NCBI GenBank assembly: GCA_022826645.1
Contig: JAJDUM010000110.1
Location: 1 to 64,000 of the forward strand
Direction of reading: 5' to 3'
Length of the DNA: 64,000 nt
From: Candidatus Poribacteria bacterium
Lineage (GTDB): Bacteria > Poribacteria > WGA-4E > PCPOR2b
This document shows positions 7,697-23,886 of this stretch, piece by piece. Both the position numbers and the translations under genes were made by a program. The notes under the pieces were generated by a model. It was not told the origin of the DNA. It made no database searches and was given only the letters and a program-made list of their open reading frames with translations. The stretch's first letter is position 1. Every line of letters starts with the position of its first letter.

Positions 7697-8116
7697 ATGG
7701 CTTTACAAGTTCAAGAGTTACAACGAAATCCGGAAGTCTCTCGCTTCATAAAAGCAGCCAAGACAGATGAAGTGAGTCCCGGCAACTGCATCAGTGCAAA
7801 ATTGGAAGGCAATTTTATCGGTATCCATAACGTCAACGGAAAATTTTACGCGGTAAACAACATCTGTCCCCATGTCGGCGGAATTTTACACGCAGGACAG
7901 TTAGAAAACGACGTTATCGTCTGCCCAATTCACCAATGGAAGTTCGATGTCAAGACCGGCAAGTGCATTTGGCCCGGAAAATGTGGGATCGCGACCTATC
8001 CGGTGAAGGTTGATGGGGCGGATATTCTTGTCGATATCAACTCGCCCAGCCAGCCAGTTCAACACAACCCCATCCGCGTTTATCACGCGAAGGGGGAACG
8101 GAGGTCAAAACTGTGA
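7697..8116 (+). CDS. Rieske [2Fe-2S] ferredoxin
   Basis: A 139-residue soluble protein with the Rieske cluster ligands C57-P-H59 and C76-P-I-H79 and the usual Gly-rich loop after the first box (VGGILHAG). Such stand-alone Rieske ferredoxins pass single electrons to oxygenases. The start is preceded by GAGGAGG. Its stop overlaps the haem monooxygenase start (GTGA), so the two proteins are made in a fixed ratio. The natural inference is that it supplies electrons for haem cleavage. A ferredoxin for another oxygenase, or a nitrite-reductase small-subunit-like protein, is less likely at this length and in this context. Confidence 0.9.
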   Translation: MALQVQELQRNPEVSRFIKAAKTDEVSPGNCISAKLEGNFIGIHNVNGKFYAVNNICPHVGGILHAGQLENDVIVCPIHQWKFDVKTGKCIWPGKCGIATYPVKVDGADILVDINSPSQPVQHNPIRVYHAKGERRSKL

Positions 8117-8469
8117 TAACTGTTGCAAATCGAATCTACGTCGCGTCCGAATATCGAGACGCCTTCGAGGAACGTTTCCGCAATCGCGCTCGACTCATTG
8201 ATGGGATGCCCGGCTTCATCTCAAACCAAGTGTTGCGTCCGGTCAATGACGATGATCCCTACGTCGTGTTCACGCTTTGGGAATCACGAAAAGACTTTGA
8301 AAACTGGGTCGAATCGGAAGAATTCCGCAAGGGACACGCCCAATCAGGAACGCTACCCCAAGAAGCGTTCACACAATCAAACAAGCTGGAACTTCACGAG
8401 GTATTTCTCGATTCCACCCGACCTGACCTTGAGGAGGAGCCGGAAGGCGGACCGTTCAGGGTGCACTAA
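8113..8469 (+). CDS. Haem-degrading monooxygenase (IsdG/HmoA type, ABM fold)
   Basis: A 118-residue dimeric ferredoxin-like ABM domain. The three residues essential in IsdG/IsdI are in matching positions: N6 (ITVANR), W65 (FENWVESEEF) and H75 (KGHAQ). Enzymes of this type bind haem and open the ring with O2 and electrons, releasing iron in the cytosol. The start is GTG 8113, which overlaps the Rieske stop; AGGAGG lies upstream inside the Rieske gene. A C-terminal tail rich in Glu and Pro extends past the usual domain end. Other ABM enzymes act on quinones, but the N-W-H set and the haem-uptake neighbours support haem. Confidence 0.87.
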   Translation: MITVANRIYVASEYRDAFEERFRNRARLIDGMPGFISNQVLRPVNDDDPYVVFTLWESRKDFENWVESEEFRKGHAQSGTLPQEAFTQSNKLELHEVFLDSTRPDLEEEPEGGPFRVH

Positions 8470-8621
8470 GGCGTATGATTCACCTGGAGTTACAAATCCA
8501 AACAGATAGGCAAAGCAAGTAAAAATGAAAGCCAAACCGACTTTCGTCAAATCAACTTATGAAGTAGTTGAGCAAGTATTCGTTATCACGGTAAGTGTCA
8601 TTTAATAAAGTTGCACACCTA

Positions 8622-8650
8622 TTGATATTGAGACTCACTTTCGTTATTTA
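8622..8650 (+). promoter_or_regulatory. Promoter overlapped by Fur-box-like operator 3
   Basis: TTGATA (8622-8627) and TATTTA (8645-8650) are 17 bases apart. The Fur-like box GATATTGAGACTCACTTTC (8624-8642, 14 of 19 matches) covers the -35 and the spacer, a classical repressor placement. Transcription would start near 8657, at the 5' end of the conserved RNA element. Between the monooxygenase stop and this site (8470-8621) I see only a 26-codon open frame without clear support. Confidence 0.68.
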
Positions 8651-8663
8651 GAAATCGAATAAC

Positions 8664-8762
8664 AGAAAAGGCGAACGATAGAAAAAGGGACAGCTCCCAA
8701 CGGCCAATTGTTAGCTATCTCCCATATCTCTATCGACTTGATATATTGGGGCTTTTTTTGCG
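8664..8762 (+). ncRNA. Putative Fur-controlled small RNA or leader, copy A
   Basis: A 99-nt element that is about 95% identical to 19017-19114. CGATAGA (8676-8682) pairs with TCTATCG (8729-8735), and GGGA-CAGC-TCCC (8687-8698) forms a small hairpin. A terminator forms from TCCCATAT (8720-8727) with 8743-8751, followed by C and seven T. A U-A pair in this stem becomes U-G in copy B, so pairing is kept. It follows a promoter/Fur-box overlap, the layout of RyhB/PrrF iron-sparing RNAs. The alternative is a transcription-attenuating leader of the downstream operon. I recognise no Rfam family. Confidence 0.6.
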
Positions 8763-8844
8763 CCCATCGCCCTTTCTGCATGTATAAGAATAAGCCGATC
8801 ATTTTGTGATTGTCAAGGAAATTCAGCCCACATAGAACGCTAAG

Positions 8845-8985
8845 ATGCAGGATAAAACAGGCTCACATTCAATGACCATTGAGATACACACCTGCAAACA
8901 GAGCAAGCGGGACAAATTCAATCCACCCTATACCTTTCTTCAAACAGTATAGAACTGGTGTAACGCTGGGCATTCTCTTTGGCAC
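8845..8985 (+). pseudogene. Remnant of a PepSY-TM gene
   Basis: From an ATG at 8845 the frame reads MQDKTGSHSMTIE... and stops at 8950-8952. It aligns with the intact protein starting at 19201 (VQDNTSSHPTTIE...). After a stop, an internal deletion and a frame change, the nucleotides around 8957-8985 still match the intact gene segment encoding GATLGILFG. The spacing from the RNA element (83 bases) matches copy B (87 bases). This is a decayed paralogue whose upstream RNA element has nevertheless stayed intact. Confidence 0.7.
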
Positions 8986-9027
8986 ACATGAGCATCTTGT
9001 TAGCCCATACTGATAAGGATTTAGATA

Positions 9028-9273
9028 ATGAAACCAACCCCTATCCAATTTAGCAGCTTGTTGCTGGCAACTGTTTTGGTCATTGGTTTGATGTTGTCTG
9101 GCTGCGAGAGTGATCCTTTACTCGCCCCGCAGGCGGCCGGTGACGAAGGCGGCAGTTATGGCAAGGCGAAACTCCCCTCTGCCGAAACCGACGAGGCACA
9201 ACCAGCAGCAGCCGGGCAAAACGGTAAAGTTGGCGACAACCGCGGCAAACGTATCAATCCAAAACTTTTCTGA
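9028..9273 (+). CDS. Small lipoprotein upstream of TonB receptor
   Basis: An 81-residue lipoprotein (lipobox LSGC26) whose short mature part is low in complexity (Ala, Gly, Gln, Glu, Pro) and ends in KRINPKLF. It has a start site with AAGGA and is 20 bases before the FecA-like receptor, so the two are probably one transcript. I do not recognise the family. It could be an accessory surface lipoprotein of the receptor. Confidence 0.65.
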   Translation: MKPTPIQFSSLLLATVLVIGLMLSGCESDPLLAPQAAGDEGGSYGKAKLPSAETDEAQPAAAGQNGKVGDNRGKRINPKLF

Positions 9274-9293
9274 AAGTGTAGGGAACAGAATCT

Positions 9294-11765
9294 ATGCGTC
9301 AATTTTTAGGAATTGTAATCTTCTTAAACCTGTTACTGGGCATACCGAACTTCTGCCTCGGTTCAATCGAGGTCCGCGGTAAAGTCACTGACAAAGAAAC
9401 AGAACAACCCCTTTCGGATGCTACCGTTAAAATTGAATCGGAGCAGCACGACCTGCAAGAGACAACAACAACTCGAGATGGCACCTTCCACCTTACTCTG
9501 GATGCCCCCGGGAGTAGACAGATTGAGGTCAGTTTAATCGGTTACGATAGCCACAGCGAGATGCTTGAGCTAACCCCCGATTCAACACACACTTTAGATA
9601 TTGCCCTATTAAGCCATCCCTTTGAACTGGCTCCTATAGAAATTATCGGCGAATCATCACAGGTCAACGACAAGCTGACCGGCACCGTCGCCCTGATGGA
9701 GCCACAAACCGTTGAGTTGATTCATCCTGTCGGCACACAGGAGCTGCTCGAATTGATGCCCGGCATCAACGGCTATGCAGACGACGGATTCGGCAATTCG
9801 CGCTTGAGCATTGGCATCCGTGGCTTGAACCCACGCCGCAGCGCCCGCGTCCTTATTCTCGAAGACGGTGTGCCCATCCAACCAGCGGTCTACATCTATC
9901 CTAATGCCTACTACAATCCACCCTCCGATAGAATCGACGCTGTAGAGGTCATCAAGGGAAGTGCCGCGCTGCGCTTCGGTCCCCAAACGATGGGCGGTGT
10001 TATCAACTACACTACTCGCAAGCCGGATGGCACACGAGGTTTGACGAATCAAGTAACCGTCGGTAATAACGGGTATTACAGCGCGTTTTCGGAGTGGCGC
10101 GGTCTCGGCACCAAGGATATCACCTCCGACCTTCAACTACTCTACAAACATGGCGACGGTTTTCGGGATAACAATACGTTCGACCAAGTGAACGGGACGG
10201 TAAAGACGTTGTTCCGACTGAACCAGAAGAAGACACTCTACCTCAAAGCAAACGGCAATTTTGAAAATTCCAACGCGACCTATACCGGTTTGACAGAGTT
10301 TTCCTTCCTGACCGATCCAAACTTCAATCCGAAACCGGACGATAATTTTAAGATTCTGCGCACTTCGCTCGACCTCATCTACACGAACAAAATCTCGACG
10401 AATCTAGTAAGCAATACGACGGTGTATACAAGCGTGTTTGACCGTCGGTGGTGGCGTGAGAATGATATCTTCGTGCGCGCCAGAACATTTGTAAAAGGGG
10501 ATTTGACACCGGTGCCGTACTACCAAACCGGCCATTTGGTCCGAATCGGTGGCGGAATAGACAACTTTGGTATCTTGCGGACCTTTTACGTCGGTGGAGT
10601 TGAGCAAAACTATACTTTCAAGCATAGCCTTGCCGGGTCTCAGGGCCATGCTGAAATGGGAGCCCGCGTCCACTGGGAACGCTTCATTGACGATAGGAAG
10701 GTCGGCGATGCCACCGATGCACGCGATGGCGTGTACTATACCGGCAACCCAGACGATCCAGAGGACCCAGTGAATATCGTAGGACAGAGCCATCACTATG
10801 AAACCACCGCCCTCGCTCTATATCTCAAAGAGCAACGTGAGTGGGAGAAACTCACCGTAACGCCAGGAGTCCGTTTTGAGGTATTTAAGCAACAACGAGT
10901 TGATCGATTATACGGTGCTATATTCTCGGACAAAGTATCCGCTGTTCTGTTGCCCGGCATCGGTGCAAACTACCAACTCGGTCACTTTAATCTATTCGGT
11001 GGAATCCATCGGGGCTACACCGCACCATCTAGCGGGGCATTGAAGATCACCCAGTTCGGACAAAACGTCGATGTCGGTGGACTTGACCTCAAAGCTGAAA
11101 AGAGTTGGAACATGGAAGCCGGATTCCGATCTTGGAGACCAGGACTGACTTTAGAAGTTGCTGGATTCTTTATCAAAATCTCAGATATCGTTGCAGCAGG
11201 ACGCGGTACAGCATTTAGGAATTTGGGCAGGGCTGACACCTACGGTTTGGAAACAGCATTAGCGTTTGGAGTTTCACGTTTTTTGCCGTTGCTACCTGAC
11301 ATTAACCTTTCTTACACCTATCTCCAAACCGAGATTAAAAAAGGCATTGTCACATCTGCCACCATTGCTGGAAATGTACCTGTAAACATCGCCGGTAACG
11401 AATTGCCCTATGCACCGCGGCACACCCTAACGGTTGGATTGGCAAAACAGATTGGCGATAGTCTGCGTATGCGAGCGGATATGCGATTTGTTGACGAGGT
11501 TTTTACGGACTTCGAGAATCTAAAGCGGACTTTTAACCGTGGCGATACCGGTCCAATCCCGAGTTACACGATTTTCAGTGCGAGTGTAGATTACAAAATC
11601 TTCGACCAATGGAAAGTCTTTGTCACGGGTAAAAATCTCTTCGATAAAGCCTACATTGGGTCAAGATTACACTCGAACGCTGGTCAACCTGAAGCAAATC
11701 TAAGTTCAGGGATACTTGTTGGACCCAGGCGACAGATACTTGTTGGTATCAGGCATGGGTTCTAG
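9294..11765 (+). CDS. TonB-dependent receptor, FecA-like, with N-terminal carboxypeptidase-regulatory domain
   Basis: An 823-residue outer-membrane receptor. After a signal peptide (to about residue 24) comes a carboxypeptidase-regulatory-like beta domain (VRGKVTDKETEQPLSDATVK). The plug domain follows with LLELMPGING, RGLNPRRSARVLILEDGVPI and GSAALRFGPQTMGGVINYTT, which match the FecA (ferric dicitrate) group, and then a 22-strand-type barrel. It imports an iron chelate with energy from TonB-ExbBD; those partners are not in the window. The ligand (citrate or another siderophore) is not proven. It is probably in an operon with the preceding lipoprotein and the following DUF4856 lipoprotein, downstream of Fur box 3. 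Confidence 0.9.
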   Translation: MRQFLGIVIFLNLLLGIPNFCLGSIEVRGKVTDKETEQPLSDATVKIESEQHDLQETTTTRDGTFHLTLDAPGSRQIEVSLIGYDSHSEMLELTPDSTHTLDIALLSHPFELAPIEIIGESSQVNDKLTGTVALMEPQTVELIHPVGTQELLELMPGINGYADDGFGNSRLSIGIRGLNPRRSARVLILEDGVPIQPAVYIYPNAYYNPPSDRIDAVEVIKGSAALRFGPQTMGGVINYTTRKPDGTRGLTNQVTVGNNGYYSAFSEWRGLGTKDITSDLQLLYKHGDGFRDNNTFDQVNGTVKTLFRLNQKKTLYLKANGNFENSNATYTGLTEFSFLTDPNFNPKPDDNFKILRTSLDLIYTNKISTNLVSNTTVYTSVFDRRWWRENDIFVRARTFVKGDLTPVPYYQTGHLVRIGGGIDNFGILRTFYVGGVEQNYTFKHSLAGSQGHAEMGARVHWERFIDDRKVGDATDARDGVYYTGNPDDPEDPVNIVGQSHHYETTALALYLKEQREWEKLTVTPGVRFEVFKQQRVDRLYGAIFSDKVSAVLLPGIGANYQLGHFNLFGGIHRGYTAPSSGALKITQFGQNVDVGGLDLKAEKSWNMEAGFRSWRPGLTLEVAGFFIKISDIVAAGRGTAFRNLGRADTYGLETALAFGVSRFLPLLPDINLSYTYLQTEIKKGIVTSATIAGNVPVNIAGNELPYAPRHTLTVGLAKQIGDSLRMRADMRFVDEVFTDFENLKRTFNRGDTGPIPSYTIFSASVDYKIFDQWKVFVTGKNLFDKAYIGSRLHSNAGQPEANLSSGILVGPRRQILVGIRHGF

Positions 11766-11834
11766 TCAAAACTTCTCAAAAGAGATGTTTATTCAGTTAA
11801 ATCACTTAACCATTAACTTTACAGAGGAAAACAT

Positions 11835-13172
11835 ATGAAAACCTTTACCGAGCGGATTCTCTGGATGGCTGTATTACTCTTGGTGACTAGCCTATTTATT
11901 GTTGGCTGTGGTGATGATGATGAAACAGACGTAGCAGATCTGCTTTTAGAAGAAGAGGCAACGGCAGGTACCACCCTCATTGACGTTCCTCCCGCCTATG
12001 TCTTTGATAGTCGCTTTGTTGAAGGCGAAAGCAGCGTTGCCTATTCTGGGCAGACTGTTCGCAATCTGTTGCTACAAGACCTCAAGATCCTTATCGATAG
12101 TCTCGGCAAGGATGGCGCACAACCTATCGCCGTACAAGATATGCTTAACTTGTACGCGTATGACGATGCACTTAACCTACAATCACTGACCATCGCCGGT
12201 GCCCTGTCCGTGTTGGAGAGTCACTATTCCGCAATTTCGACGGGTAAGAGTCTGGATGGAAAGATTTCGGGCGATCCTGTCATCGGTTATAACCGCACCG
12301 CGGACGACTTGGTCCGTGAGTGGTTCCAAGTTATCGCAGACAACTCGCAGAACCCTGACAAACTCGGAACCCCGGCAGTCTACACCGACGACAGTGGGGT
12401 AGACCTGACGCAGATGATTAACAAAGTGCTCATCGGCGCTGTCCCTTACTACCAAGCCACAGGTGTTTATCTCAACGGTCTACTGGAGCGTGACAATAGT
12501 GAGGCGCGAAACGGCACCGATCCCTATACCGCTATGGAACACGGGTGGGATGAAGCGTTCGGCTACTTTGGTGCCGCTCGCGACTATTTCCGCTATACCG
12601 ATGAGCAGCTCGCCGGTAAGACCGACGATTACACCTTCGACTCCAACGGCGATGGTCGTATCGACTTTAAATCGGAGTATAATTTTGGACTCTCCAGAAA
12701 TGCCGGTAAGCGCGATAAAGGCGGCTCAGGTGTTGATTTAACTCGGGAGATTTTCGACGCATTTCTCAGGGGGCGTACCCTAATTGCCAACCAGGGCACT
12801 GAAGTTGACATCATTCAACAACGGCAGCTCGCCGCTAACGGCATGGAGAAGGTTATCGCCGCAACAGTTGTGCACTACATCAACGATACCCTGAGTGATA
12901 TGTCTGATTTAGGTACGGACGCTGAAAACCGTGTGAACCTAAACAAACACTGGGCGGAGATGAAAGGGTTTACCGTTGCCTTACAGTATAATCCATTCAA
13001 ACTGATTGGTGATGGACAACTCAGGGAACTGCACGGTATCATGGGGCAGGCACCCAGTTACGATGCACCGGGCAGCCCCGCTCACGATACAACGGTTAGA
13101 AATTACAACCGTGCTAAGGATGTATTGCAGGCAGCCTACGGATTCTCCGCTGCCAACATGGCAAACTGGTAA
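11835..13172 (+). CDS. DUF4856 (imelysin-related) lipoprotein
   Basis: A 445-residue lipoprotein (lipobox IVGC25 followed by an acidic Gly-Asp-Asp stretch). The N-terminal segment YVFDSRFVEGESSVAYSGQT and the following RNLLLQDLKILIDSLG are characteristic of DUF4856, a mostly helical family found next to iron-uptake genes and thought to share the imelysin fold. No enzymatic residues are established. It lies 69 bases after the FecA-like receptor with the site CAGAGGA, so it probably functions with that receptor, as the imelysin at 2301 does with the porin and di-haem protein. Confidence 0.8.
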   Translation: MKTFTERILWMAVLLLVTSLFIVGCGDDDETDVADLLLEEEATAGTTLIDVPPAYVFDSRFVEGESSVAYSGQTVRNLLLQDLKILIDSLGKDGAQPIAVQDMLNLYAYDDALNLQSLTIAGALSVLESHYSAISTGKSLDGKISGDPVIGYNRTADDLVREWFQVIADNSQNPDKLGTPAVYTDDSGVDLTQMINKVLIGAVPYYQATGVYLNGLLERDNSEARNGTDPYTAMEHGWDEAFGYFGAARDYFRYTDEQLAGKTDDYTFDSNGDGRIDFKSEYNFGLSRNAGKRDKGGSGVDLTREIFDAFLRGRTLIANQGTEVDIIQQRQLAANGMEKVIAATVVHYINDTLSDMSDLGTDAENRVNLNKHWAEMKGFTVALQYNPFKLIGDGQLRELHGIMGQAPSYDAPGSPAHDTTVRNYNRAKDVLQAAYGFSAANMANW

Positions 13173-13212
13173 AATTAAGCATCTGTTTGAAAGGTTGTCA
13201 TGAAGTATTGGG

Positions 13213-14721
13213 GTGGAGTTGCGCTCTTTCCAAAACAGGTCCCAAGAAATCGTGAACACACGTAGGCAAAACAATCATCGAAATTTTGACAGGTTGGTGA
13301 TACGTAAATTTTCGGATTGGCGTATCACTGAACCCAAAATGTGGGGCATCGTGTTGGTCCTCTGTGTTGGATCGCGGTTACTCACGACCATATACTATAT
13401 CGAAGATTTGGATAGCCTCCGCTTCGCGTTGAGCATGGTTGACTATGATGTCGCCAAGTTGCAACCCCACTTCCCAGCTTACCCCGTTTTCTGTTTTGTT
13501 GGTAAGCTCATCTACACCATCACAGGACGTTACGCCTTGGCTTTTTCGCTTATCGGTGGCGTATCGATATTTCTGATCATTTTTTTTCTGTTCAAGATTG
13601 CAGGAATAAGAAATACCTCATCTGTTGGGCTTATTGCTATTTTTATACTGCTCGCTAACCCCCTACTGTGGTTGATGAGCAACCGTTATATGCCGGATGC
13701 AATGGGAGTTGGACTCGTGTTGGCAAGTCTCTATTTCACGACAGTTCAGGACGATCAACCGCGTAAAATCGGGTTCGGATTTTTTCTCGCTGGGGTTTTG
13801 GGTGGGGTACGTCTCTCCTGTTTACCGATACTGATACCCGCGCTGCTGATGCGACTACGAGGCCGGTGGCAAACCCTTAGATTTATCGCAGCAGGGGCAG
13901 CAGGAGTCACCGTTTGGCTGGCGCCTTTAATTATCCTCACGGGTTGGGAGTCGCTCGTTGATGCCGCCCAGACACACAGTCGGGGGCATTTTCTAGACTT
14001 TGGCGGCACCATTTCTAGTGAACCCGGATTGGGGATTCGATTTGCGAAACTTTTTGAGAGTGTGTGGGCAGACGGTTTGGGGCTTTATTGGAACGGGCGG
14101 CACCTCATAACCGCCTGCACAACAGCTACTTTACTCGGAATTCTGGTCACAAATCGGCGTACCAAAAAAAACGTAAAACACTCAAGTTTTCTGAGTGCCA
14201 GTTTCATTGGGTGTATGGTCTACTTAATCTGGATTTTCTGCTTCCAAAATGTCGTGCACAAGAGTCGGCATGTTCTGCCGTTGGTACCTTTCTTGGCACT
14301 GTTTATCGCCTATGCCTGTGCCAAAATTGTTGAGGAATCAAATCGGATACTCAAGTTGGTTTTAATCGTCTTTCTCTGCTGTTACGGTTATGTCGCACTT
14401 CATTTGGTAGTGCAGCACAAAAAACCGACCGCTATCGCGCAAATACATCAGTACCTCAAGACCAAACAGAGCGATAAACTACATGTGGTCTCGGTACCGT
14501 TAATTAAATATTATCTCGCTGCGCAAGGGTTGCAGGCAACCTACACTCCGATTAAAACTACGGAAGATCTGGCAAAACTTGACGAAAAGCTGAACGACAC
14601 ATCAGAGCTGGTAGCTATCGGTAGCCCGCTGCATGACCGGGCACCGAAAACGAAGAAAACATTCTATCATAATCCGTATGTTAATCGGATGTGGCCCGAA
14701 TTATCTCTGTTTGAGTATTGA
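13213..14721 (+). CDS. Multi-spanning GT-C-like membrane glycosyltransferase candidate
   Basis: A 502-residue protein with about ten hydrophobic segments. The first periplasmic loop carries YIEDLDSLRFA, an acidic motif in the position used by GT-C enzymes (polyprenyl-phosphate sugar transferases of the mannosyltransferase/PMT superfamily). The C-terminal ~110 residues are soluble. The likely role is transfer of a lipid-linked sugar outside the membrane. The start is uncertain: GTG 13213 is the longest, GTG 13252 is also possible. It is followed with a 4-bp overlap region by a flavoprotein and then Ugd and a sugar kinase, which together suggest surface-polysaccharide synthesis. Confidence 0.65.
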   Translation: MELRSFQNRSQEIVNTRRQNNHRNFDRLVIRKFSDWRITEPKMWGIVLVLCVGSRLLTTIYYIEDLDSLRFALSMVDYDVAKLQPHFPAYPVFCFVGKLIYTITGRYALAFSLIGGVSIFLIIFFLFKIAGIRNTSSVGLIAIFILLANPLLWLMSNRYMPDAMGVGLVLASLYFTTVQDDQPRKIGFGFFLAGVLGGVRLSCLPILIPALLMRLRGRWQTLRFIAAGAAGVTVWLAPLIILTGWESLVDAAQTHSRGHFLDFGGTISSEPGLGIRFAKLFESVWADGLGLYWNGRHLITACTTATLLGILVTNRRTKKNVKHSSFLSASFIGCMVYLIWIFCFQNVVHKSRHVLPLVPFLALFIAYACAKIVEESNRILKLVLIVFLCCYGYVALHLVVQHKKPTAIAQIHQYLKTKQSDKLHVVSVPLIKYYLAAQGLQATYTPIKTTEDLAKLDEKLNDTSELVAIGSPLHDRAPKTKKTFYHNPYVNRMWPELSLFEY

Positions 14722-14726
14722 ACAAA

Positions 14727-16073
14727 ATGCAATCTATCAAAACTGACATCCAGATCCTCGGCGGTGGTCCTGCGGCGTTGACAACCGGCTATTACGCGAA
14801 GAAACACGAACTTGATTTCGCTCTCTTTGAAGCGGGCACAGATGTTGGAGGGAATTGCCGTACGCTTCGGGCCGGGGATTTCCGATTTGATACAGGTGCC
14901 CACCGATTCCACGATAAAGATCCTGAAGTCACTAGCGTGGTAAAAAAACTACTGGGAGATGCACTTTTACGTGTTGATGCACCGAGCGAAATCTTTTTCG
15001 AAGGACAATTTTTCCGATTTCCACTGACATTGAACGACCTAATTGGAAAACTGGATGCCAAAACGTTACTGAAAATCACGTGGGATAAGCTGCAGGCTCC
15101 GGGTGAAACAGTAACAGATAATTTTGAAACATTTGCGGTCAATCAGTACGGTAGAACACTGGCAGACCGTTTTCTGCTCAACTACTCTAAAAAACTGTGG
15201 GGAGAAGCTACACACAAACTGTCTACAGTTATATCAGGAAAGCGGTTAAAAGGACTCGATCTGAAAACCTTTATCCGTTCCTCCCTACTGGGCGAGGAAC
15301 AAAATCCGAGACATTTGGACGGTAGTTTCTTTTATCCCAAATACGGCATCGGGATGATCGTCGATAAGTTGAGCAAATTCATAGGTGACGAACATATCCA
15401 CATCAACAGTAGAGTGAGCCAACTGATTCACAAAAACGGCAAAATTAAGCGCGTCATATTAAATAATGGCGATGTTGAACTAAGTGCAGATACGGTAATC
15501 AGCACACTGCCACTAACACTCTCAGCGAAAATTCTAGATCCACCACCGCCATCGGACCTTTTAGCTATCGCTGACTCGATCAAGTATAGAAATCTAGTGC
15601 TATGCGTATTCGGCTTGAATCGAACCGCATTTTCGCCAAATGCTTCACTCTACTTTCCAAGTGAGGAGTTCCCGTTTACACGGCTTTATGAACCCAAAAA
15701 TCGCAGTGTTCACATGGCACCCACAAACCAGACAGTAATTGTACTTGAACTGCCGTGTTACAGCGATGATCCGGTCTGGAATATGTCCGAAGAAACACTA
15801 AGAGCCAAGGTCTGGGAAGCGTTACGCCGCATCAAACCAATAGCAATAGATGAAGTTGTTCGCTATCGGACCTATAAATTGCCATTCGCCTATCCCGTGC
15901 TTGAGGTCGGGTTTGCGGAGAAGGTGGCGCGTTTGGTCGAATATTTTGAGACATTTGAGAATCTGTATGTGACGGGAAGAAGTGCCCGCTTTAGCTACTT
16001 ACACCTCCACGACCTGTTCAAAACAGGGAGAGAATTAATAGATCAGATTGTGTATAAGGGAAACAACGGATAA
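14727..16073 (+). CDS. FAD-dependent amine-oxidase/UDP-galactopyranose-mutase-like protein
   Basis: About 448 residues. It begins with an FAD-binding Rossmann motif (ILGGGPAALTTGYYA), then the FEAGTDVGG and TGAHRFH segments typical of the UGM/protoporphyrinogen-oxidase/amine-oxidase superfamily, and ends in YVTGRSARFSYLHLHDLF, the C-terminal FAD-contact region. In glycan clusters such proteins are often UGM-like mutases or sugar-linked oxidases. The exact reaction cannot be assigned. TTG 14718 overlaps the preceding stop and is an alternative start; ATG 14727 is chosen for codon type. Confidence 0.75.
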   Translation: MQSIKTDIQILGGGPAALTTGYYAKKHELDFALFEAGTDVGGNCRTLRAGDFRFDTGAHRFHDKDPEVTSVVKKLLGDALLRVDAPSEIFFEGQFFRFPLTLNDLIGKLDAKTLLKITWDKLQAPGETVTDNFETFAVNQYGRTLADRFLLNYSKKLWGEATHKLSTVISGKRLKGLDLKTFIRSSLLGEEQNPRHLDGSFFYPKYGIGMIVDKLSKFIGDEHIHINSRVSQLIHKNGKIKRVILNNGDVELSADTVISTLPLTLSAKILDPPPPSDLLAIADSIKYRNLVLCVFGLNRTAFSPNASLYFPSEEFPFTRLYEPKNRSVHMAPTNQTVIVLELPCYSDDPVWNMSEETLRAKVWEALRRIKPIAIDEVVRYRTYKLPFAYPVLEVGFAEKVARLVEYFETFENLYVTGRSARFSYLHLHDLFKTGRELIDQIVYKGNNG

Positions 16074-16144
16074 AACGAGAAAGTTCGGATAGACTATGTT
16101 TGACTTAACACAACCGGTCAGACATGCAAAGAACAGGTGAAAAT

Positions 16145-17545
16145 ATGAAAGTCGCAATTATTGGTACTGGATATGTTGGTTTAACCACCGCCGTCGTGCT
16201 CGCCACCCTCAACCATGACGTTGCCGCAGTGGATAAAGACGAGGGCAAACTCAGTCTTTTGCACGCCGGCAAAACCCCTATCCATGAACCCGGCATCCAG
16301 GACCTTTTTGACAAAGTGCGACACACTATCTGTTTCACACCTGATGTGGCTGAAGCGGTTCCAGAAGCAGAACTGATCCTGATTACTGTTGGCACCCCAC
16401 TGAAAAATGGTGGGGCCGATACGCAGTTTGTGAAACAAGCAGCACTGGAAGTTGCACAGGTCTGTCATCCAGATCGGCACTATACCCTCGCTATCAAATC
16501 CACGGTGCCAATTGGTACCAATCGGCATGTCGCTAAAATTGTTGAAAAAGTCTTTGCAGCACGAGGGGTTCGCGGGAATGTTTCTGTTGCTTCCAATCCG
16601 GAGTTTTTGCAGGAGGGGTTGGCGCTGCAAGGTTCGTTCTATCCAGATCGGATTGTTGTTGGAGCAGATTGTGAGGAGGCGGTAAACACCTTACGCTGCC
16701 TCTATCAACCGATACTTGAACAGACGTTTGACTCACCAAGTTCATTACCACGTCCGGTGGGCTACCCACCGCCACCGATGGTAACGACGGATCCAAACAG
16801 TGCAGAGATGCTCAAATACGCAGCGAACACTTTCCTCGCGCTTAAAATTAGTTTCATTAATGAAATCGCAGGACTCTGCGAGAAAGTAGACGCCGACGTG
16901 ACAGAGGTTGCACGAGGCATCGGGCTTGACTCCCGTATAGGATCACGATTCCTCAACGCTGGTATTGGTTGGGGCGGGAGCTGCTACCCTAAAGATACAG
17001 CGGCGATGTTAAATATTGCAGCGCAATCTGGGTATACAATGCCTATCACTGAAGCAGCACGAACTGTTAACTCCCGACAACGGGAACGCATTGTCGAAAA
17101 GTTGCAAAACGCACTGAAAACCCTCAAAGGGAAAACCATCGGCATCCTCGGTCTTGCCTTCAAACCAAATACAGATGACATCCGAGAAGCGCCCGCGCTA
17201 TACATTATCCGCCAACTTATTAGAGAAGGGGCAAATGTTCGTGCACATGACCCCGTTGCTATCGAAAACGCAAGGCACGCCCTCAACAGATTCCCTGTCG
17301 TTTTTACTAGCAATGTGCGTGAAGTTACTCACAATGCAGATGCGTTGGTGCTCATCACCGATTGGAAAGAGTACCAGAACATGGACTTAAAGGCACTCGC
17401 CAAACAAATGAATACACCGTTGCTCATCGACGGGCGCAATGTTTATACTCCCCAAGAAGCGGAAGCCGCTGGATTTCATTACATCGGAATCGGTAGGAGC
17501 TCTGATAGAGTTAGGAGTTACGCGTTTGATAAATCAGAACTTTGA
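16145..17545 (+). CDS. ugd: UDP-glucose 6-dehydrogenase
   Basis: A 466-residue NAD-dependent enzyme that oxidises UDP-glucose to UDP-glucuronate. It starts with a dinucleotide-binding motif (VAIIGTGYVGL), has the substrate segment SNPEFLQEG, the catalytic cysteine C280 in GWGGSCYPKDT, and the C-terminal domain with LGLAFKPNTDDIREAP. ATG 16145 is chosen over an in-frame ATG at 16124 because AGGTG precedes it and the Rossmann strand begins at once. UDP-glucuronate is a precursor of acidic surface glycans, in keeping with its neighbours. A UDP-mannose-type dehydrogenase is less likely given the motif set. Confidence 0.92.
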   Translation: MKVAIIGTGYVGLTTAVVLATLNHDVAAVDKDEGKLSLLHAGKTPIHEPGIQDLFDKVRHTICFTPDVAEAVPEAELILITVGTPLKNGGADTQFVKQAALEVAQVCHPDRHYTLAIKSTVPIGTNRHVAKIVEKVFAARGVRGNVSVASNPEFLQEGLALQGSFYPDRIVVGADCEEAVNTLRCLYQPILEQTFDSPSSLPRPVGYPPPPMVTTDPNSAEMLKYAANTFLALKISFINEIAGLCEKVDADVTEVARGIGLDSRIGSRFLNAGIGWGGSCYPKDTAAMLNIAAQSGYTMPITEAARTVNSRQRERIVEKLQNALKTLKGKTIGILGLAFKPNTDDIREAPALYIIRQLIREGANVRAHDPVAIENARHALNRFPVVFTSNVREVTHNADALVLITDWKEYQNMDLKALAKQMNTPLLIDGRNVYTPQEAEAAGFHYIGIGRSSDRVRSYAFDKSEL

Positions 17546-17549
17546 TTTA

Positions 17550-17662
17550 ACCCCGGTTGTGGGCGGCAGATTAAGACAACCTATGTCCACAACTGAATAA
17601 CCATTAGCACGTGTCAAAGTCATACGGCGTAGAAAACAAGAGACGATTTTCACAACCGAGGT
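17550..17662. repeat. Possible small inverted-repeat element
   Basis: ACCCCGGTTGTG (17550-17561) pairs with CACAACCGAGGT (17651-17662) with one mismatch, bounding 113 bp of non-coding sequence between ugd and the kinase. No second copy was noticed, so this may be chance or an mRNA structure. Confidence 0.3.
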
Positions 17663-17697
17663 ACGTAAGATCTAATTAATCGGTATAAGGTGAACTC

Positions 17698-18735
17698 ATG
17701 ATTATTTCACGGACGCCGATACGAATCAGTTTGGTGGGCGGCAGCACCGATATCGCTAGTTTTTATCGAGAACATGGGGGCGAAACCATCAGCACCACCA
17801 TCGACAAATATATCTCCGTCCGTATCGCGAGACAGCGAAACTCTCAAATTGCTATCGACACCCCACATCACCGTGAAACGGTTGCTGATCCGAATCACAT
17901 TCAACACCCTTTGATTCGAGAAGCAGTGCGCAAAACCTTTCCCACCGTTTACGGGGAGTATAGAGGGGGCGGGATAACTATCACAGTGAGCTCAGATATC
18001 CCCTCACGCGGCTGTGGGTTGGGGTCGTCAAGCGCGTTAACCGTTGGACTCCTCAATGCGCTGTACGCCTATCGGGGAATCGAAATGTCCCCGGAAACCC
18101 TCGCGTATCAGGCATGTAAGATTGAGATAGAGCATTTGAACCAGCCCATTGGGAAGCAAGATCAGTACATCGCCGCTTACGGCGGATTGAGGCGGATTCG
18201 GTTTAACAAAGATGAAAGTGTCAATACGCAAGATATCTCGGTAACCTCTGAAATGGTAACCCATTTAGAAAAGAACCTCACCCTATTCTACACAGGAGTT
18301 CAACGACGCGCCGAAACCATATTCCACGAACAGAAACGCACTGCGAATCCCCAGACGCTACTGAAAATCAAGGCGCTCGTGTCAGCGTTTTACGACGTTC
18401 TCATTGAGGGCAACCACAAGGATTGCCCCTGCAAGATCGGACATCTGTTACATCGTGGTTGGAGTTTGAAACGTACCCTCTGTGATAGCATTTCAAACCA
18501 TAAGCTAGATACTATCTATGAGCGTGCCATTGCTGCGGGCGCGTTGGGTGGCAAGATTCTGGGAGCAGGCGGCGGGGGATATTTTCTATTTTATATTCCC
18601 AAGGAAAAACAGGGACGAATAACAAGCATCCTCGCCGAGTTAGGACTCTTGCGGTTGGGATACCGCTTTGAAGCCAAAGGCAGTCAACTCATCGCACAAA
18701 GAAATCCCAATGAAAATCATTATTCCTATAGTTAG
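17698..18735 (+). CDS. GHMP-family sugar kinase (HddA-like)
   Basis: A 345-residue GHMP kinase. It begins IISRTPIRISLVGGSTD, has the ATP-binding motif GCGLGSSSALTVG and the third GHMP motif LGGKILGAGGGGYFLFY. The closest family pattern is D-glycero-alpha-D-manno-heptose-7-phosphate kinase and related fuco-/heptokinases that feed nucleotide-sugar pools for capsule or S-layer glycans. No heptose isomerase or nucleotidyltransferase is visible here, so the exact sugar is unknown. The start has ATAAGGTGA upstream. It closes the glycan cassette. Confidence 0.82.
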   Translation: MIISRTPIRISLVGGSTDIASFYREHGGETISTTIDKYISVRIARQRNSQIAIDTPHHRETVADPNHIQHPLIREAVRKTFPTVYGEYRGGGITITVSSDIPSRGCGLGSSSALTVGLLNALYAYRGIEMSPETLAYQACKIEIEHLNQPIGKQDQYIAAYGGLRRIRFNKDESVNTQDISVTSEMVTHLEKNLTLFYTGVQRRAETIFHEQKRTANPQTLLKIKALVSAFYDVLIEGNHKDCPCKIGHLLHRGWSLKRTLCDSISNHKLDTIYERAIAAGALGGKILGAGGGGYFLFYIPKEKQGRITSILAELGLLRLGYRFEAKGSQLIAQRNPNENHYSYS

Positions 18736-18791
18736 GAACAGACATGGCTCAGACCGCACGTTTTCACGCCTTCTCAGATGTTGATACATTT

Positions 18792-18952
18792 AGGACTTAC
18801 ACAGACAGTTGAATGCTTACCCCCTCTATCCCTCGTGCGGTTACGAAAGCAGGGAGACGGGTAAAGCGAACTCTTAATGCCCAATGAATCCCCGACGAAT
18901 CCCCGATACATCGGGACAGGCGGGCAACTACAATCTGAAGTGCGTAATTCCT
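18792..18952. repeat. MITE-like element, second copy (inverted)
   Basis: AGGACTTACACA at the left and TGCGTAATTCCT at the right are imperfect versions of the ends of the 2151-2264 element. The reverse complement also shares TTGTAGTTGCCCG and GATTCATTGGGC-type internal sequence. At 161 bp it is longer, with an extra central segment. It separates the glycan cassette from the haem-uptake operon. Confidence 0.6.
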
Positions 18953-18991
18953 AAGAGTATAGATATTGCTCGATAAAATTGCACGATTACT

Positions 18992-19010
18992 GATATTGAG
19001 ACTCATTATT
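18992..19010. promoter_or_regulatory. Fur-box-like operator 4
   Basis: GATATTGAGACTCATTATT matches 15 of 19 positions of the classical Fur box, the best of the four in the window. A conserved TTGCAC lies upstream in this copy and at 8611. The -10 is less clear than in copy A (TATTAA at 19007 is a candidate). It sits 6 bases before the conserved RNA element and upstream of the PepSY-TM/TonB-receptor genes. Confidence 0.72.
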
Positions 19011-19016
19011 AAAAAA

Positions 19017-19114
19017 AGAAAAGGCGAACGATAGAAAAGGGGACAGCTCCCAACGGCCAATTGCTAGCCATCTCCCATATCTCTATCGACTTGATGTATT
19101 GGGGCTTTTTTGCG
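19017..19114 (+). ncRNA. Putative Fur-controlled small RNA or leader, copy B
   Basis: A 98-nt element that differs from 8664-8762 at four bases and one T of the terminal run. The 7-bp CGATAGA/TCTATCG pairing and the GGGA-CAGC-TCCC hairpin are unchanged. Two substitutions near 19064 and 19069 abolish an alternative CTATC pairing but leave the main one, which favours the structure proposed for copy A. The terminator arm change A to G keeps a wobble pair. The PepSY-TM start is 87 bases beyond the end, so either a free small RNA or an attenuating leader is possible. Confidence 0.6.
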
Positions 19115-19200
19115 TTCACACCTTTTCTGCACTGATTAGAAATGGATCAGTGGCTGTGCAACCGTCGAGAAAACGTAGTGCACGTAAAAGGGAGGCTAAG

Positions 19201-19905
19201 GTGCAAGATAACACAAGTTCGCATCCAACAACCATAGAGAAAAAACAGGACAAACGTCGTTCGCCCTACGCCTTTCTTCCAACGGCGTGGAGCCGGGGCG
19301 CCTTTCTCAAATGGTTGCGTCGAACACACGCTTGGCTCGGGCTCTGGGGTGCAACGTTGGGCATCCTCTTCGGTATCACCGGGATTTTACTCAACCATCG
19401 AGGCACCATGAAGATTAATGCCGCTAAGACCGAACGGACAAAAATTGAACTTGCGCTGCCAGAAGTTCGACCGGAAAACGTCGAGGATTTTGCGGTATGG
19501 CTTCAAGCGGAACTGAATATCGAGAAAAAGTGGAGTCGGGCACGTTCAGAACCAGCACAAGAAATTAGTTGGGATGGGCAGTCGGTTGTACAGCCTGAAA
19601 AATGGCGCGTCAGCTTCAGTAATCCACAACGGACCTACAGCGCGGACTATTGGGTTGGCAACAGTTACGCCAGCGTCACGCGATTTGACCGCAATGTCTT
19701 TGCATTCCTCAACCGTCTGCACATGGCAAGCGGAGTGGGGGCCGCGTGGATTCTTCTCGCCGATTCGGTCGCTGGCAGCTTAATCATCCTCTCCCTCACC
19801 GGAATACTGCTCTGGACGCGACTCCATGGACCTCGCCTCCTGGCTGCGGGGCTCGGTTTCGGATCACTGACTCTTGCAATCTTTTTTGTTTGGCGAACAT
19901 TCTAA
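19201..19905 (+). CDS. PepSY-associated transmembrane protein
   Basis: About 234 residues with an N-terminal helix (WLGLWGATLGILFGITGILL), a soluble PepSY-like domain containing a W-R-V-S-F strand and WVGNSYASVTRFDRN, then a HMA-type LNRLHMASG motif and C-terminal membrane helices. PepSY-TM proteins neighbour siderophore and haem receptors and are proposed to reduce or release iron from imported ligands at the inner membrane. The start is GTG 19201 after GGGAGG. The longer open frame from 19099 begins inside the RNA terminator and is rejected. The decayed paralogue at 8845 starts at the equivalent codon. Confidence 0.78.
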   Translation: MQDNTSSHPTTIEKKQDKRRSPYAFLPTAWSRGAFLKWLRRTHAWLGLWGATLGILFGITGILLNHRGTMKINAAKTERTKIELALPEVRPENVEDFAVWLQAELNIEKKWSRARSEPAQEISWDGQSVVQPEKWRVSFSNPQRTYSADYWVGNSYASVTRFDRNVFAFLNRLHMASGVGAAWILLADSVAGSLIILSLTGILLWTRLHGPRLLAAGLGFGSLTLAIFFVWRTF

Positions 19906-20062
19906 CCGATTTACGGGGTGGTCATCTTATGGCGGACTCTCTTTAATATACTTCTTTAATATACTGAGGGGGCGTCAAATGACCACAGGCTTTCTCTCAT
20001 AGGGTGGGGAAGGTCTGTCGATAATTAACCCTAGGCTCTCAAGCTTGTTGGGGTTAGGGGTC
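19905..20062 (+). repeat. Direct repeat of the TonB-receptor 3' end and flank, copy 1
   Basis: About 158 bp similar to 22070-22216. It includes a degraded version of the last codons of the receptor (GRSFYGGLSLTY region) and about 100 bp of flank with GACCACAGGCTTTCTCTCAT and GGCTCTCAAGCTTGTTGGGG. It lies directly after the PepSY-TM stop and before the receptor, so the receptor gene is bracketed by direct repeats. Confidence 0.75.
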
Positions 20063-20086
20063 AAGCGTGGGAGCCCGGTGTAGCAA

Positions 20087-20131
20087 GTCATGCGTAGCGC
20101 AAAAAATCATTTGCCTCCCGCTACGCATGAC
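20087..20131 (+). promoter_or_regulatory. Leader hairpin of the second TonB receptor
   Basis: GTCATGCGTAGCG (20087-20099) is exactly inverted at 20119-20131 with a 19-nt loop. It lies 63 bases before the receptor start and has no T-run. It may protect or regulate the mRNA; no known riboswitch consensus was seen. Confidence 0.5.
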
Positions 20132-20194
20132 GCGTTACACAGCAATCAATCGCGCACAAATTGTCAGGATAATTACACAGAAAGGAGACCATTG

Positions 20195-22117
20195 ATGCAC
20201 TTACACAAACGACTTTGGATAGGATGCTTCGCTATCCTCATAGTCGGTGGAACGAGGTTAAGTTTCGCTGCAATAGAGCCAAAAAGTGATCTCTTTCAGA
20301 TGGACGAAGTGGTCATCACCGGCACAAAAACCGAAAGACGGTTGAAAGACACACCCGTTATCACAGAGGTCATCACACGAAGTGAGATCGAAGCAACGGG
20401 CGCAGAAAACATCGGCGAGGTGCTTGAGCATCGGGTGGGGATCGTCGTCAATCGCGATGCCCACGGCGACGGGGTTCAATTACAAGGACTCGATTCGGAT
20501 TACATCCTGATTCTACTCGATGGCGAACCCCAGGTCGGTCGAATCGCTGGCAAACTCGATCTCGCACGGATTGCGGTCGAAAACGTTGAGCGAATCGAAA
20601 TTGTCAAAGGTGCCTCCTCCGCACTCTTTGGCAGCGCTGCGATGGGCGGCGTAATCAACGTCATCACGCGCAGTGCATCATCCCCATTTGCTGCCCAATT
20701 TACCAACAACCTTGAGACTCATAATACCATCGACAGCCGCACCACAGTTGAATTGAACCGCGACAAGCTCAACGCGCTGTTGACCCTCGCCGCAAACCGT
20801 CGAAATCCAATCGACCTCGATGAGTCAGATCTAACAACAACAATTGATGGCTATCAGAACTGGACCCATTCCGCACGAACTGAGTATCAACTGACCTCCA
20901 AATCGACCCTCCTGTTTTCCGGGCAATACTTTGCTCAAAAGCAGGAAGGTGTCAGCGAAAATGAGGGTGTCATCTTTGACCGGCTCGGTGATATCGACAA
21001 CTTCAGCGGTAGCCTCGGCACAGCATATCAACTCGGCTCGCGCTCAAAGTTGGTGGGCAAAATATACACCACACGCTACCGCGATGAATCGACAGTTATT
21101 GACCGTGGCACCTTGCTCACAGCATCTTCAAACATCACAATTCAAGACCTGATAAAAGGAGAAGCACAATTTGACACTGCTCTCGGATCCAAGAATCAAC
21201 TGACCGTTGGTGCGGAGCTAATCTTTGAAAATCTTGAATCCCAACGCATCACGGGCGGTGAGAAGGAGGTTACAACCGATTCACTGTTTTTCCAGAACGA
21301 ATTTCGGCCGATAGCAAACCTTGCATTTGTCTTGGGAGGAAGACTGGACTATCACTCCGAATTTGGAACACACTTCAGCCCGAAGTTGAGCGGACTGTAT
21401 CGCGTGACCCCCGATGTCACGATCCGGACCTCCTTCGGTCAAGGCTTTCGTGCGCCTGACTTCAAAGACCTCTACCTCGATTTCAGCAATCCGACCTCCG
21501 GCTATCAGGTGCTTGGAAACCCAGATCTACAACCGGAGTCATCGGGTAATTGGAATTTTGGAGTTGAATACCGGTTTAGATCCGCACTACTCGGACGGGT
21601 GCACCTGTATCGAAACAACCTGAACAACCTGATCGAGGCAGAGCGGATCGGGAAGAGCGTACTTGGCGGCAGCAAATTTCAGTATTTCAACGTCAGTGAA
21701 GCGTTCACCGAAGGCGTTGAAATCGAACTTTCCACCCGTTCCATCGGGGGCTTCTCCGCAACAATCGGCTATGCACATCTCAACGGCGAGGATAAAGAGA
21801 CAGGGCTGACACTACTCAATCGGTCAAAACATAGTGGCAACCTCAAACTTGCCTACGCTAACCAAGGTGCTGGTTTCAACGTAGATCTGCGCGGGCGTTA
21901 TGCCAGCAGGTGGGGATTCTTCGACGACGGTGACAACGTCCTTGAAGATGAGGAGTACGCACCGAGCAATTGGATTTGGAATCTTCGGGGGTCAAAGCAA
22001 ATTCTCAAATGGCTCAAAGCCTCTGTCGGTGTTAACAACATTTTCGACCTCAAAATTCCAACTTTTTACACCTTTACCGGGCGGTCATTCTATGGCGGAC
22101 TCTCATTGACTTACTGA
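20195..22117 (+). CDS. TonB-dependent receptor (haem/cobalamin-receptor-like)
   Basis: A 640-residue outer-membrane receptor with a signal peptide (to about residue 25, LSFA), a TonB-box-like DEVVITGTKTER, a plug with VLEHRVGIVV and RIEIVKGASSALFGSAAMGGVINVIT, and a 22-strand-type barrel ending GLSLTY. The upstream 35 residues of the longest frame are excluded: ATG 20195 has GAAAGGAGA in front. Size and plug sequence match the BtuB/HmuR/CirA-type receptors. The HmuY-like lipoprotein and hmuTUV genes downstream favour haem, but the conserved receptor His/NPDL haem motif needs an alignment to confirm; NPDLQPESS is visible. Confidence 0.88.
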   Translation: MHLHKRLWIGCFAILIVGGTRLSFAAIEPKSDLFQMDEVVITGTKTERRLKDTPVITEVITRSEIEATGAENIGEVLEHRVGIVVNRDAHGDGVQLQGLDSDYILILLDGEPQVGRIAGKLDLARIAVENVERIEIVKGASSALFGSAAMGGVINVITRSASSPFAAQFTNNLETHNTIDSRTTVELNRDKLNALLTLAANRRNPIDLDESDLTTTIDGYQNWTHSARTEYQLTSKSTLLFSGQYFAQKQEGVSENEGVIFDRLGDIDNFSGSLGTAYQLGSRSKLVGKIYTTRYRDESTVIDRGTLLTASSNITIQDLIKGEAQFDTALGSKNQLTVGAELIFENLESQRITGGEKEVTTDSLFFQNEFRPIANLAFVLGGRLDYHSEFGTHFSPKLSGLYRVTPDVTIRTSFGQGFRAPDFKDLYLDFSNPTSGYQVLGNPDLQPESSGNWNFGVEYRFRSALLGRVHLYRNNLNNLIEAERIGKSVLGGSKFQYFNVSEAFTEGVEIELSTRSIGGFSATIGYAHLNGEDKETGLTLLNRSKHSGNLKLAYANQGAGFNVDLRGRYASRWGFFDDGDNVLEDEEYAPSNWIWNLRGSKQILKWLKASVGVNNIFDLKIPTFYTFTGRSFYGGLSLTY

Positions 22118-22216
22118 GGTGGCTGCTAAATGACCACAGGCTTTCTCTCATAGGGTGGAGAAAGCTGGTCGATTAATCAACCTTAGGCTCTCAAGCTTGT
22201 TGGGGTTAAGGGGCGA
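22070..22216 (+). repeat. Direct repeat of the TonB-receptor 3' end and flank, copy 2
   Basis: The functional copy of the repeat at 19905-20062. It covers the last ~15 codons of the receptor and about 100 bp of downstream sequence. Differences are scattered substitutions and small indels. Confidence 0.75.
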
Positions 22217-22253
22217 GTTTGAGAGCTCCATCAATTACACCAATAGAAAAAAG

Positions 22254-22760: not shown

Positions 22761-22782
22761 GAGAAAGTTGATTCTTTCTTAC
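22757..22782. other. Imperfect hairpin after the HemX-like gene
   Basis: GTAAGAGAAAG pairs with CTTTCTTAC with one bulge over the stop codon of the HemX-like gene. There is no T-run. It may be an mRNA processing or stability element. Confidence 0.3.
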
Positions 22783-22813
22783 ACCACTAAAATCTATCAA
22801 GAAAGGAAACCAA

Positions 22814-23029
22814 ATGATTCACACAATAGAGTCTCTGTCAAGTAACCGTATATGCGCTGTCTACCAATGCCTTGAAGGGCATATTCACTTCAAATACCGG
22901 GGGATCGACATTGCGATGACCCCACAAGATTTCTATCAAGTTGCCGGCACTATCGCGGAAGCCATGTTGACCATCAACGATGATAAAACAAAGGCTTTAA
23001 CAGACGCGAATCAACCAATCACTGTCTAA
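22814..23029 (+). CDS. Small cytosolic protein of unknown function
   Basis: A 71-residue protein with a good start site (AAGAAAGGA). Two cysteines (C14, C19) sit in ICAVYQCLEGHIHFKY, followed by GIDIAMTPQDFYQVAGTI. The C-x4-C plus two His in GHIH could bind a metal or haem, but this is only suggested by composition. It lies in the haem-uptake operon between the HemX-like and HmuY-like genes. I do not recognise a named family. Confidence 0.6.
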   Translation: MIHTIESLSSNRICAVYQCLEGHIHFKYRGIDIAMTPQDFYQVAGTIAEAMLTINDDKTKALTDANQPITV

Positions 23030-23062
23030 TCCATTATTTCAAGTGCTCAATAGGAGGACATA

Positions 23063-23740: not shown

Positions 23741-23790
23741 CGAATAATTCGTGCTGCTGCGAGAGGATGCTGTGTCTCCTACCTCTCCGG

Positions 23791-23828: not shown

Positions 23829-23886
23829 AATCCCTTGACATAAGGGATCAATTACAATGTTCCGTTTCCAACACAAGGAGCCAACA

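Follow-up and report, generated by a model that had tools for sequence, protein, structure and literature searches.

Iron-sparing small RNAs of the RyhB and PrrF type carry a Fur box over their own promoter and pair, in an Hfq-dependent manner, with the mRNAs of iron proteins. In Bacteroides, DonS is described as a family of 78- to 128-nucleotide (nt) antisense RNAs that lie divergent to susC homologues and lower their expression (PMC7366714). The FopS small RNAs, also from Bacteroides, are described as paralogs that repress susC-type receptor mRNAs, 4 of 14 being classed as antisense (PMC11697453). A review describes transcription attenuation of the mRNA both for an antisense RNA acting on the iron-transport operon of Vibrio anguillarum and for RnaG of Shigella, which concerns virulence (PMC8383071). 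Here we analyze a stretch of 64,000 nt from a Candidatus Poribacteria bacterium (contig JAJDUM010000110.1, positions 1 to 64,000; "the window"), which holds two copies of an RNA gene, at 8662 to 8782 and 19015 to 19133. The gene is probably written from the minus strand, antisense to genes for heme uptake, and it recurs with them in related genomes.

Like DonS, the RNA is antisense to a TonB-receptor operon and sits at its head in 18 of the 21 regions that we drew, 20 from relatives plus the window; the likeness is drawn from this arrangement. The exceptions are genome G012, where the RNA stands ahead of an ATPase gene, and the diverged copies of G007 and G005 (the latter called G005b), which stand ahead of a gene for a cytochrome-like lipoprotein. 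Unlike DonS, it belongs to heme uptake in another phylum, the operon appears to be Fur controlled, and a fold and a hairpin tip are conserved. The V. anguillarum RNA and RnaG, compared by description, act via termination, whereas a plus-strand terminator-like end is kept here in one genus. FopS RNAs act in trans via a seed and measure about 65 to 70 nt; the present RNA has one or two copies per genome, is larger, and is highly structured. With RyhB and PrrF1/PrrF2, as their features are generally known, it shares the iron context, the nearby Fur boxes, and, in the window, the duplication, but it differs in having its own promoter on the other strand with no Fur box among those listed, in lying antisense to an uptake operon, and in matching no Rfam family. 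The features of the two copies are as follows.

8662..8782, minus strand: copy 1 of the RNA gene, which looks intact (models R1 and R2, fold, covariation)
8787..8816, minus strand: promoter of the RNA, with −35 TTGACA at 8811-8816, an 18-nt spacer, and −10 TATTCT at 8787-8792
8769-8779 with 8662-8672, minus strand: closing helix P1 of copy 1
8747-8766, minus strand: hairpin P2 of copy 1, with an A7 loop
8693..8715, minus strand: nearly invariant apical hairpin P5, GCUAACAAUUGGCCGUUGGGAGC (alignment of 35 copies)
19015..19133, minus strand: copy 2 of the RNA gene (85.9 bits with R2; promoter decayed)
8621..8642, plus strand: Fur-like box 1 (32.1 bits with a matrix containing this box)
18989..19010, plus strand: Fur-like box 2 (33.4 bits with a matrix containing this box)

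The initial annotation had described two elements, at 8664-8762 and 19017-19114, differing by four bases and one T, and a global alignment confirmed this (94 of 99 columns identical). Since identity fell to 64 of 118 columns in the 100 nt to the left and to 42 of 65 columns in the 60 nt to the right, the core is better kept than its flanks. The shared 7-bp pairing and the GGGGC-T(6-7) ends that had been claimed were found as CGATAGA/TCTATCG and as GGGGC-T7 and GGGGC-T6. The earlier 98-nt plus-strand stretch, however, folded no better than shuffled sequences (copy 1, z −1.11, 29 of 200 shuffles as good; copy 2, z +0.39, 122 of 200). The full element is longer and spans 8662-8782 in copy 1; it extends past the T-tract to where it is closed by the inverted repeat CAGAAAAGGCGA/TCGCCCTTTCTG. 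A third copy was not found in the 6.04-Mb assembly (127 contigs), where the next DNA matches were 15 to 27 nt long. The 12-bp inverted repeat also suggested a mobile element with terminal inverted repeats, which we ruled out on the grounds of only two copies, a promoter, and covarying stems.

The earlier reading assumed an RNA on the plus strand, an assumption that the promoter speaks against. A sigma70-type promoter, usually TTGACA-N17/18-TATNCT, ends ∼7 nt before the first helix of the RNA on the minus strand. At least 9 of 12 consensus positions matched on the minus side of 32 of 35 copies, compared with the plus side of 4 of 35 copies and 12% of mononucleotide shuffles, and an exact TTGACA followed after 16 to 18 nt by a TAT-type −10 was present in 28 of 35. 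All four plus-strand candidates sit in the f1 or f2 regions, where the Fur box lies. The three copies without a minus promoter are copy 2 of G000, the window's own genome, copy 2 of G006, and G014; the relatives are largely metagenome assemblies. In the promoter table, 30 of the 35 copies were aligned after being picked by pattern, which makes the conservation of −35 and −10 there partly circular, and G068, G036, G023, and G053 are listed with a 16-nt spacer, equal promoter scores having been resolved that way. The promoter is sigma70-type and looks constitutive, and the transcript of copy 1 would be expected to start near 8780.

Base pairs pointed to the same strand. We used two alignments: A4, a MAFFT alignment with a hand-set structure, contains 27 of 32 copies (39 matches minus seven antisense duplicates), the near copies G006el1, G006el2, G004el1, and G026 and the incomplete G014 being left out; A5 contains all 35 places and was fitted to the model. 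On the minus strand, the 35 copies had 102 G-U against 17 A-C cells, numbers that would swap on the plus strand, and A4 had 75 against 15; by region, the split was 42 versus 3 in P1, 23 versus 14 in P3/P4, and 37 versus 0 in P5. This count leans somewhat toward the minus strand, on which the set of pairs had been selected. Copy 1 folded at −53.4 kcal/mol on the minus strand (z −6.73) and at −39.0 kcal/mol on the plus strand (z −3.93), with 0 of 200 shuffles as good in either case. Because of the promoter in 32 of 35 copies, the strand-specific G-U pairs, and the stronger minus fold of copy 1, we conclude that the RNA is probably written from the minus strand. A small protein was considered as well. 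Individual genomes have an ORF (open reading frame) of 45 or 51 codons that begins at the RNA, but the frames differ and these ORFs are not conserved; no conserved ORF starting in the first 60 nt of the RNA was found among the copies.

Across copies, the RNA measures 118 to 192 nt and consists of the closing helix P1, a variable 5' hairpin, P2, and a long covarying hairpin, P3-P4-P5. P1 pairs both ends, GCAGAAAAGGC with GCYUUUUCUGY. P2 in the window's genus reads UGGGC-GCA7-GCCCCA, and its A7 is the T7 of the initial annotation on the other strand. The tip, P5, is GCUAACAAUUGGCMGUUGGGAGC, with 98.1 and 100% of cells paired in its two helices. Overall, 94.2% of cells were paired in A4, compared with 43 to 56% when partners were slid, and 94.4% in A5, compared with 47 to 59%. 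Double-change cells numbered 40 in A4 against 14.0 in shuffles and 59 in A5 against 20.7, while covariation reached 0.202 against 0.130 and 0.225 against 0.137, respectively; 0 of 500 shuffles were as high in any of these. In A5, pairs with a double change (11 versus 6.7; 2 of 500 shuffles as high) and further pair types (36 versus 32.4; 20 of 500) also exceeded the shuffles. The greatest changes in stems P3 and P4 are seen in G007, G005b, and G012, where the tip persists. In G053, the tip motif appears by eye to be nested twice (L109, 9487-9678), as if it were the working unit.

Poribacteria live mainly in sponges, and the element appears to be a Poribacterial RNA gene absent from Rfam. Covariance model R1, derived from seven close copies, detected it in 29 of the order's 72 genomes (E up to 1). 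The minus-strand model R2, derived from 27 copies, located 35 places in 31 of 84 Poribacteria genomes (E up to 0.1), with 31 of 72 inside the order and 0 of 12 outside. No more than 33 preliminary candidates were scored in each genome, and some copies may therefore have been missed. Copy 1 scored 105.8 bits with R2, in whose 27 copies it is included. A DNA search located copies in 3 of the 5 other genomes of the window's genus, and an exact scan for the core TCCCAACNGCCAATTGTNAGC in a collection of 84,980 species returned 20 stretches, all Poribacterial, the window's own record possibly being uncounted. The initial annotation had recognized no known family, and Rfam agrees: at gathering score no family was found in the window, copy 2 having been searched at this score only, and at a lax threshold no bacterial small RNA was found in the 471 nt around copy 1 or in 11 relatives.

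The RNA usually has the same genomic setting. Gene names were taken from Pfam scans of members and carried over by BLAST clustering, HmuU and HmuV being named by eye; in G000 and G004 the ORF picker took an overlapping frame, and the monooxygenase gene was confirmed present. In 18 of the 21 regions, the RNA lies antisense between an ABM monooxygenase gene on its left and the TonB-receptor operon, and the receptor gene or its operon adjoins it in all 21. The right neighbor is the TonB receptor, in some cases with PepSY between, in 15 of the 18 monooxygenase regions; beyond it, as far as contigs reach, follow HmuY once or twice, HmuT, HmuU, and HmuV, and in f4 also a ferritin-like protein. In the other 3 of the 18 (copy 1 of G000, G004, and G006), a lipoprotein-like ORF and another TonB receptor stand on the right. 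The gap from the monooxygenase stop to the element is ∼7 to 12 nt in seven f4 genomes and ∼190 nt in the window. A riboswitch or same-strand leader was discarded, as the RNA runs toward the 3' end of its convergent left neighbor in 18 of 21 regions. The lipoprotein beside the diverged copy in G007 and G005b scored just below the cut-off for PSCyt1; that form of the RNA (L104, L105) has a plus-strand hairpin followed by T6. In the window, the neighborhood is the following.

8113..8469, plus strand: ABM-family monooxygenase, left neighbor (Pfam PF03992; NCBIfam HmuQ 61.4 bits, below the cut-off of 130)
about 8845..8945, plus strand: remnant of a PepSY gene start following copy 1, whose intact homolog follows copy 2 (alignment of both regions, inspected by eye)
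9028..13172, plus strand: small lipoprotein-like ORF (no Pfam match), TonB-dependent receptor, and DUF4856 protein (ORFs; Pfam for the last two)
19201..27168, plus strand: heme-uptake genes behind copy 2, comprising the next six lines
19201-19905, plus strand: PepSY_TM
20090-22117, plus strand: TonB receptor
22155-22760, plus strand: cytochrome-c-assembly-like protein
23063-23740, plus strand: HmuY
23857-24804, plus strand: periplasmic binding protein
25311-26360 and 26353-27168, plus strand: two ORFs in place of permease and ATPase (labels inferred from gene order elsewhere)

The monooxygenase of the window comes closest to HmuQ and to Isd-type heme oxygenases, with scores under the cut-offs of these models, and likely serves heme breakdown. 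The TonB receptor scored with heme-receptor and other TonB models, all below their cut-offs. A gene for a ferritin-like protein (7056-7547, minus strand) stands beside those for a Rieske protein and the monooxygenase, placing iron storage next to likely heme breakdown.

Presence of the RNA follows HmuY (PF14064), which 29 of the 84 genomes encode, 27 being members of the order. The RNA was present in 27 of 27 HmuY genomes of the order and absent from 41 of the 45 order genomes lacking HmuY (Fisher p 7e-16, uncorrected for kinship); no order genome among the 72 keeps HmuY without the RNA. Four order genomes have the RNA without HmuY: in G005 the contig ends inside the receptor gene, G007 has the separate diverged copy, and in G025 and G050 (L118, L119) the heme operon has mostly been lost by internal deletion, the RNA and part of the receptor gene being kept. 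The monooxygenase gene occurs in 45 of 84 genomes, namely all 31 RNA-bearing genomes and 14 without the RNA, so the RNA tracks the heme operon rather than the monooxygenase gene. In G021, G028, G031, and G032, inspection by eye showed sequence similar to the end of the ATPase gene behind the monooxygenase, and RNA and operon therefore seem to have been lost together.

The initial annotation had also placed a Fur-like box ahead of each element, with 14 of 19 and 15 of 19 matches; we recounted the same figures by hand against the E. coli 19-mer. It took the box for the RNA's own control, a role that the relatives do not support. We scored the 21 regions with a matrix built from twelve boxes of these loci, which score high by construction, and considered the best up to six boxes per region. 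In 12 of 13 f4 regions, a palindrome like TGATAATGAGANTCATTATC precedes the monooxygenase gene, 400 to 650 nt from the RNA on its left side; in the remaining one, G022, no Fur box was found near the monooxygenase among those listed. In G000, G004, and G006 (f1) and G009 and G010 (f2), a box lies 37 to 44 nt left of the RNA, G009 and G010 having an additional one near −460. Among the best up to six, no box was found within 2 kb in G007, G005b, and G012, nor within 2 kb on the promoter side of the RNA in any of the 21 regions. Shuffled regions gave 20 matches of at least 10 bits in 418 kb, while the boxes named at these loci score 16 to 34. As the f4 boxes precede the monooxygenase gene and not the element, the Fur box is best read as the operator of a plus-strand operon promoter whose transcript would read antisense through the RNA gene. 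The window's genome encodes three FUR-family proteins. Further Fur-like boxes, at 794-815 (29.6 bits) and 869-890 (23.9 bits), lie on the side of imelysin and di-haem peroxidase ORFs.

Copy 2 has decayed in part. In G000 and G006 its minus promoter has been lost, together with parts of P1 and P2, and the long hairpin is kept; in the window, the P1 end and P2 are damaged and the promoter reads TCGACG / ATTTCT. Copy 2 of G004 retains a promoter-like pair (9/12) and the helices. The broken PepSY start behind copy 1, taken with the single copy of G005, which lies between monooxygenase and PepSY, suggests that the element was duplicated when the first operon was inserted. A plus-strand transcript across copy 2 would be complementary to the copy 1 RNA at nearly every position, and copy 2 was by far the strongest duplex among the values listed in a target scan, as expected from duplication.

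From these features we infer transcription, repression, target, and manner of action as follows. The minus-strand promoter, which has no Fur box, would start a structured RNA of about 118 to 192 nt. When iron is scarce, Fur would release the operon promoter, and the leader or spacer of the operon mRNA would include a sequence complementary to the entire RNA. Pairing of the RNA with that mRNA, a collision between transcription from the two strands, or both would then damp or delay expression of the outer-membrane heme receptor. The decayed copy 2 could stay a target for the copy 1 RNA, and one RNA could therefore reach both operons. A dedicated minus-strand antisense RNA that damps Fur-controlled heme uptake, DonS-like in action, is the explanation that we favor, with moderate confidence.

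Several observations weigh against this explanation or parts of it. Antisense pairing by itself needs no invariant hairpin tip, so a third partner of the RNA, a protein or other, is likely. The strand signal is uneven, since 35 of the 102 G-U cells are one invariant P5 pair and P3/P4 are split by only 23 to 14, and the folding energy of copy 2 does not discriminate between strands (minus z −2.58, 3 of 200 shuffles as good; plus z −2.83, 0 of 200). In A4, neither pairs with a double change (8 versus 5.8; 27 of 500 shuffles as high) nor further pair types (28 versus 28.2; 324 of 500) stood out as the other measures did. At the 3' end, the 18 nt behind P1 average 53% T without a clean terminator hairpin. 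G007 and G005 (G005b) hold their diverged copy away from HmuY, between a TonB receptor and the cytochrome-like lipoprotein, and two HmuY genomes outside the order (G074, G075) lack the RNA. The co-occurrence, moreover, is partly physical linkage, as in several genomes a single deletion seems to have removed both the RNA and the operon.

In a trans-acting or protein-binding RNA, the invariant hairpin would bind a protein or a distant mRNA, and the antisense position would only lower the RNA level when the operon is transcribed, giving an indirect iron signal. The tip does stay constant while P3/P4 change in G007, G005b, and G012, it is nested twice in G053, and structure is kept against mutation. 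Yet a duplex scan of 330 start regions at 21 loci gave a mean z of 0.0 and, among the clusters of four or more that were listed, no conserved complementary target, near-matches to the tip complement numbered 54 in the genome (the two copies included) against 50 in the reversed control, and families differ at one tip position, which is either A or C; we regard this explanation as the less probable one, at perhaps a quarter of the weight. A variant in which the tip binds a protein or heme/iron, so that the RNA would be an antisense-encoded sensor of heme status, Fur independent, layered on Fur, and travelling with the operon as a cassette, strikes us as speculative and rather unlikely.

Two further explanations place the functional RNA on the plus strand. 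In an attenuator, the terminator of the Fur-controlled transcript would form when the antisense RNA or another signal blocks P3/P4 pairing. All 9 copies of the window's genus have a run of at least 6 T; in its seven near copies a hairpin of −5.3 to −7.3 kcal/mol precedes the run, its left arm overlapping the P4-pairing strand, and a hairpin before U6 also occurs in the diverged G007 and G005 copies (−9.9, −11.8) and in G012, f3 (−12.4). Outside the genus, such runs occur in only 3 of 26 copies, 12 of 35 copies lack a detected hairpin before a U run of at least 4, and the plus fold of copy 1 is weaker than the minus fold. The terminator claimed in the initial annotation thus does not extend beyond the genus, and the paired attenuator that it raised survives as a possible extra inside that genus; as a general account it is improbable. 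A Fur-repressed plus-strand iron-sparing RNA of the RyhB/PrrF type, to which the elements had first been likened, would fit the Fur box that lies about 20 nt in front of the plus-strand element in five f1/f2 regions and the plus promoter-like pairs (at least 9/12) in 4 of 35 copies, all f1 or f2. The minus promoter in 32 of 35, the strand-specific G-U pairs, the 13 f4 regions without a Fur box at this place, and the rarity of the T-tract outside the genus all disagree with it, and we consider it very improbable.

6S RNA, which is near-universal within a lineage and forms a rod with a central bubble, was also considered and rejected: the present RNA is patchy (31 of 72 order genomes) and has a P1-P2-P3 junction without a two-sided bubble. 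The Rfam 6S model found nothing over its cut-off in 70 order genomes and one weak match elsewhere; it passed the cut-off in only 4 of 14 well-known control genomes and may be blind here. Open-licence literature naming both Poribacteria and small RNA held, among the matches listed, no small-RNA study of Poribacteria by title, and that on structured RNAs did not name Poribacteria among the matches listed.

The proposal of a new iron-linked RNA in the initial annotation has held up in part, in that a conserved RNA is tied to iron and heme genes with adjacent Fur boxes. The case also carries a warning: when a Fur box and a T-tract adjoin a conserved element, they can suggest the wrong strand. For metatranscriptomes, it offers a concrete RNA, promoter, and target. 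If our interpretation is true, Poribacteria would gain a conserved family of regulatory RNAs, a duplicate that has decayed may still serve as a target, and the principle of antisense RNAs at receptor operons would extend from the glycan loci of Bacteroides to heme uptake.

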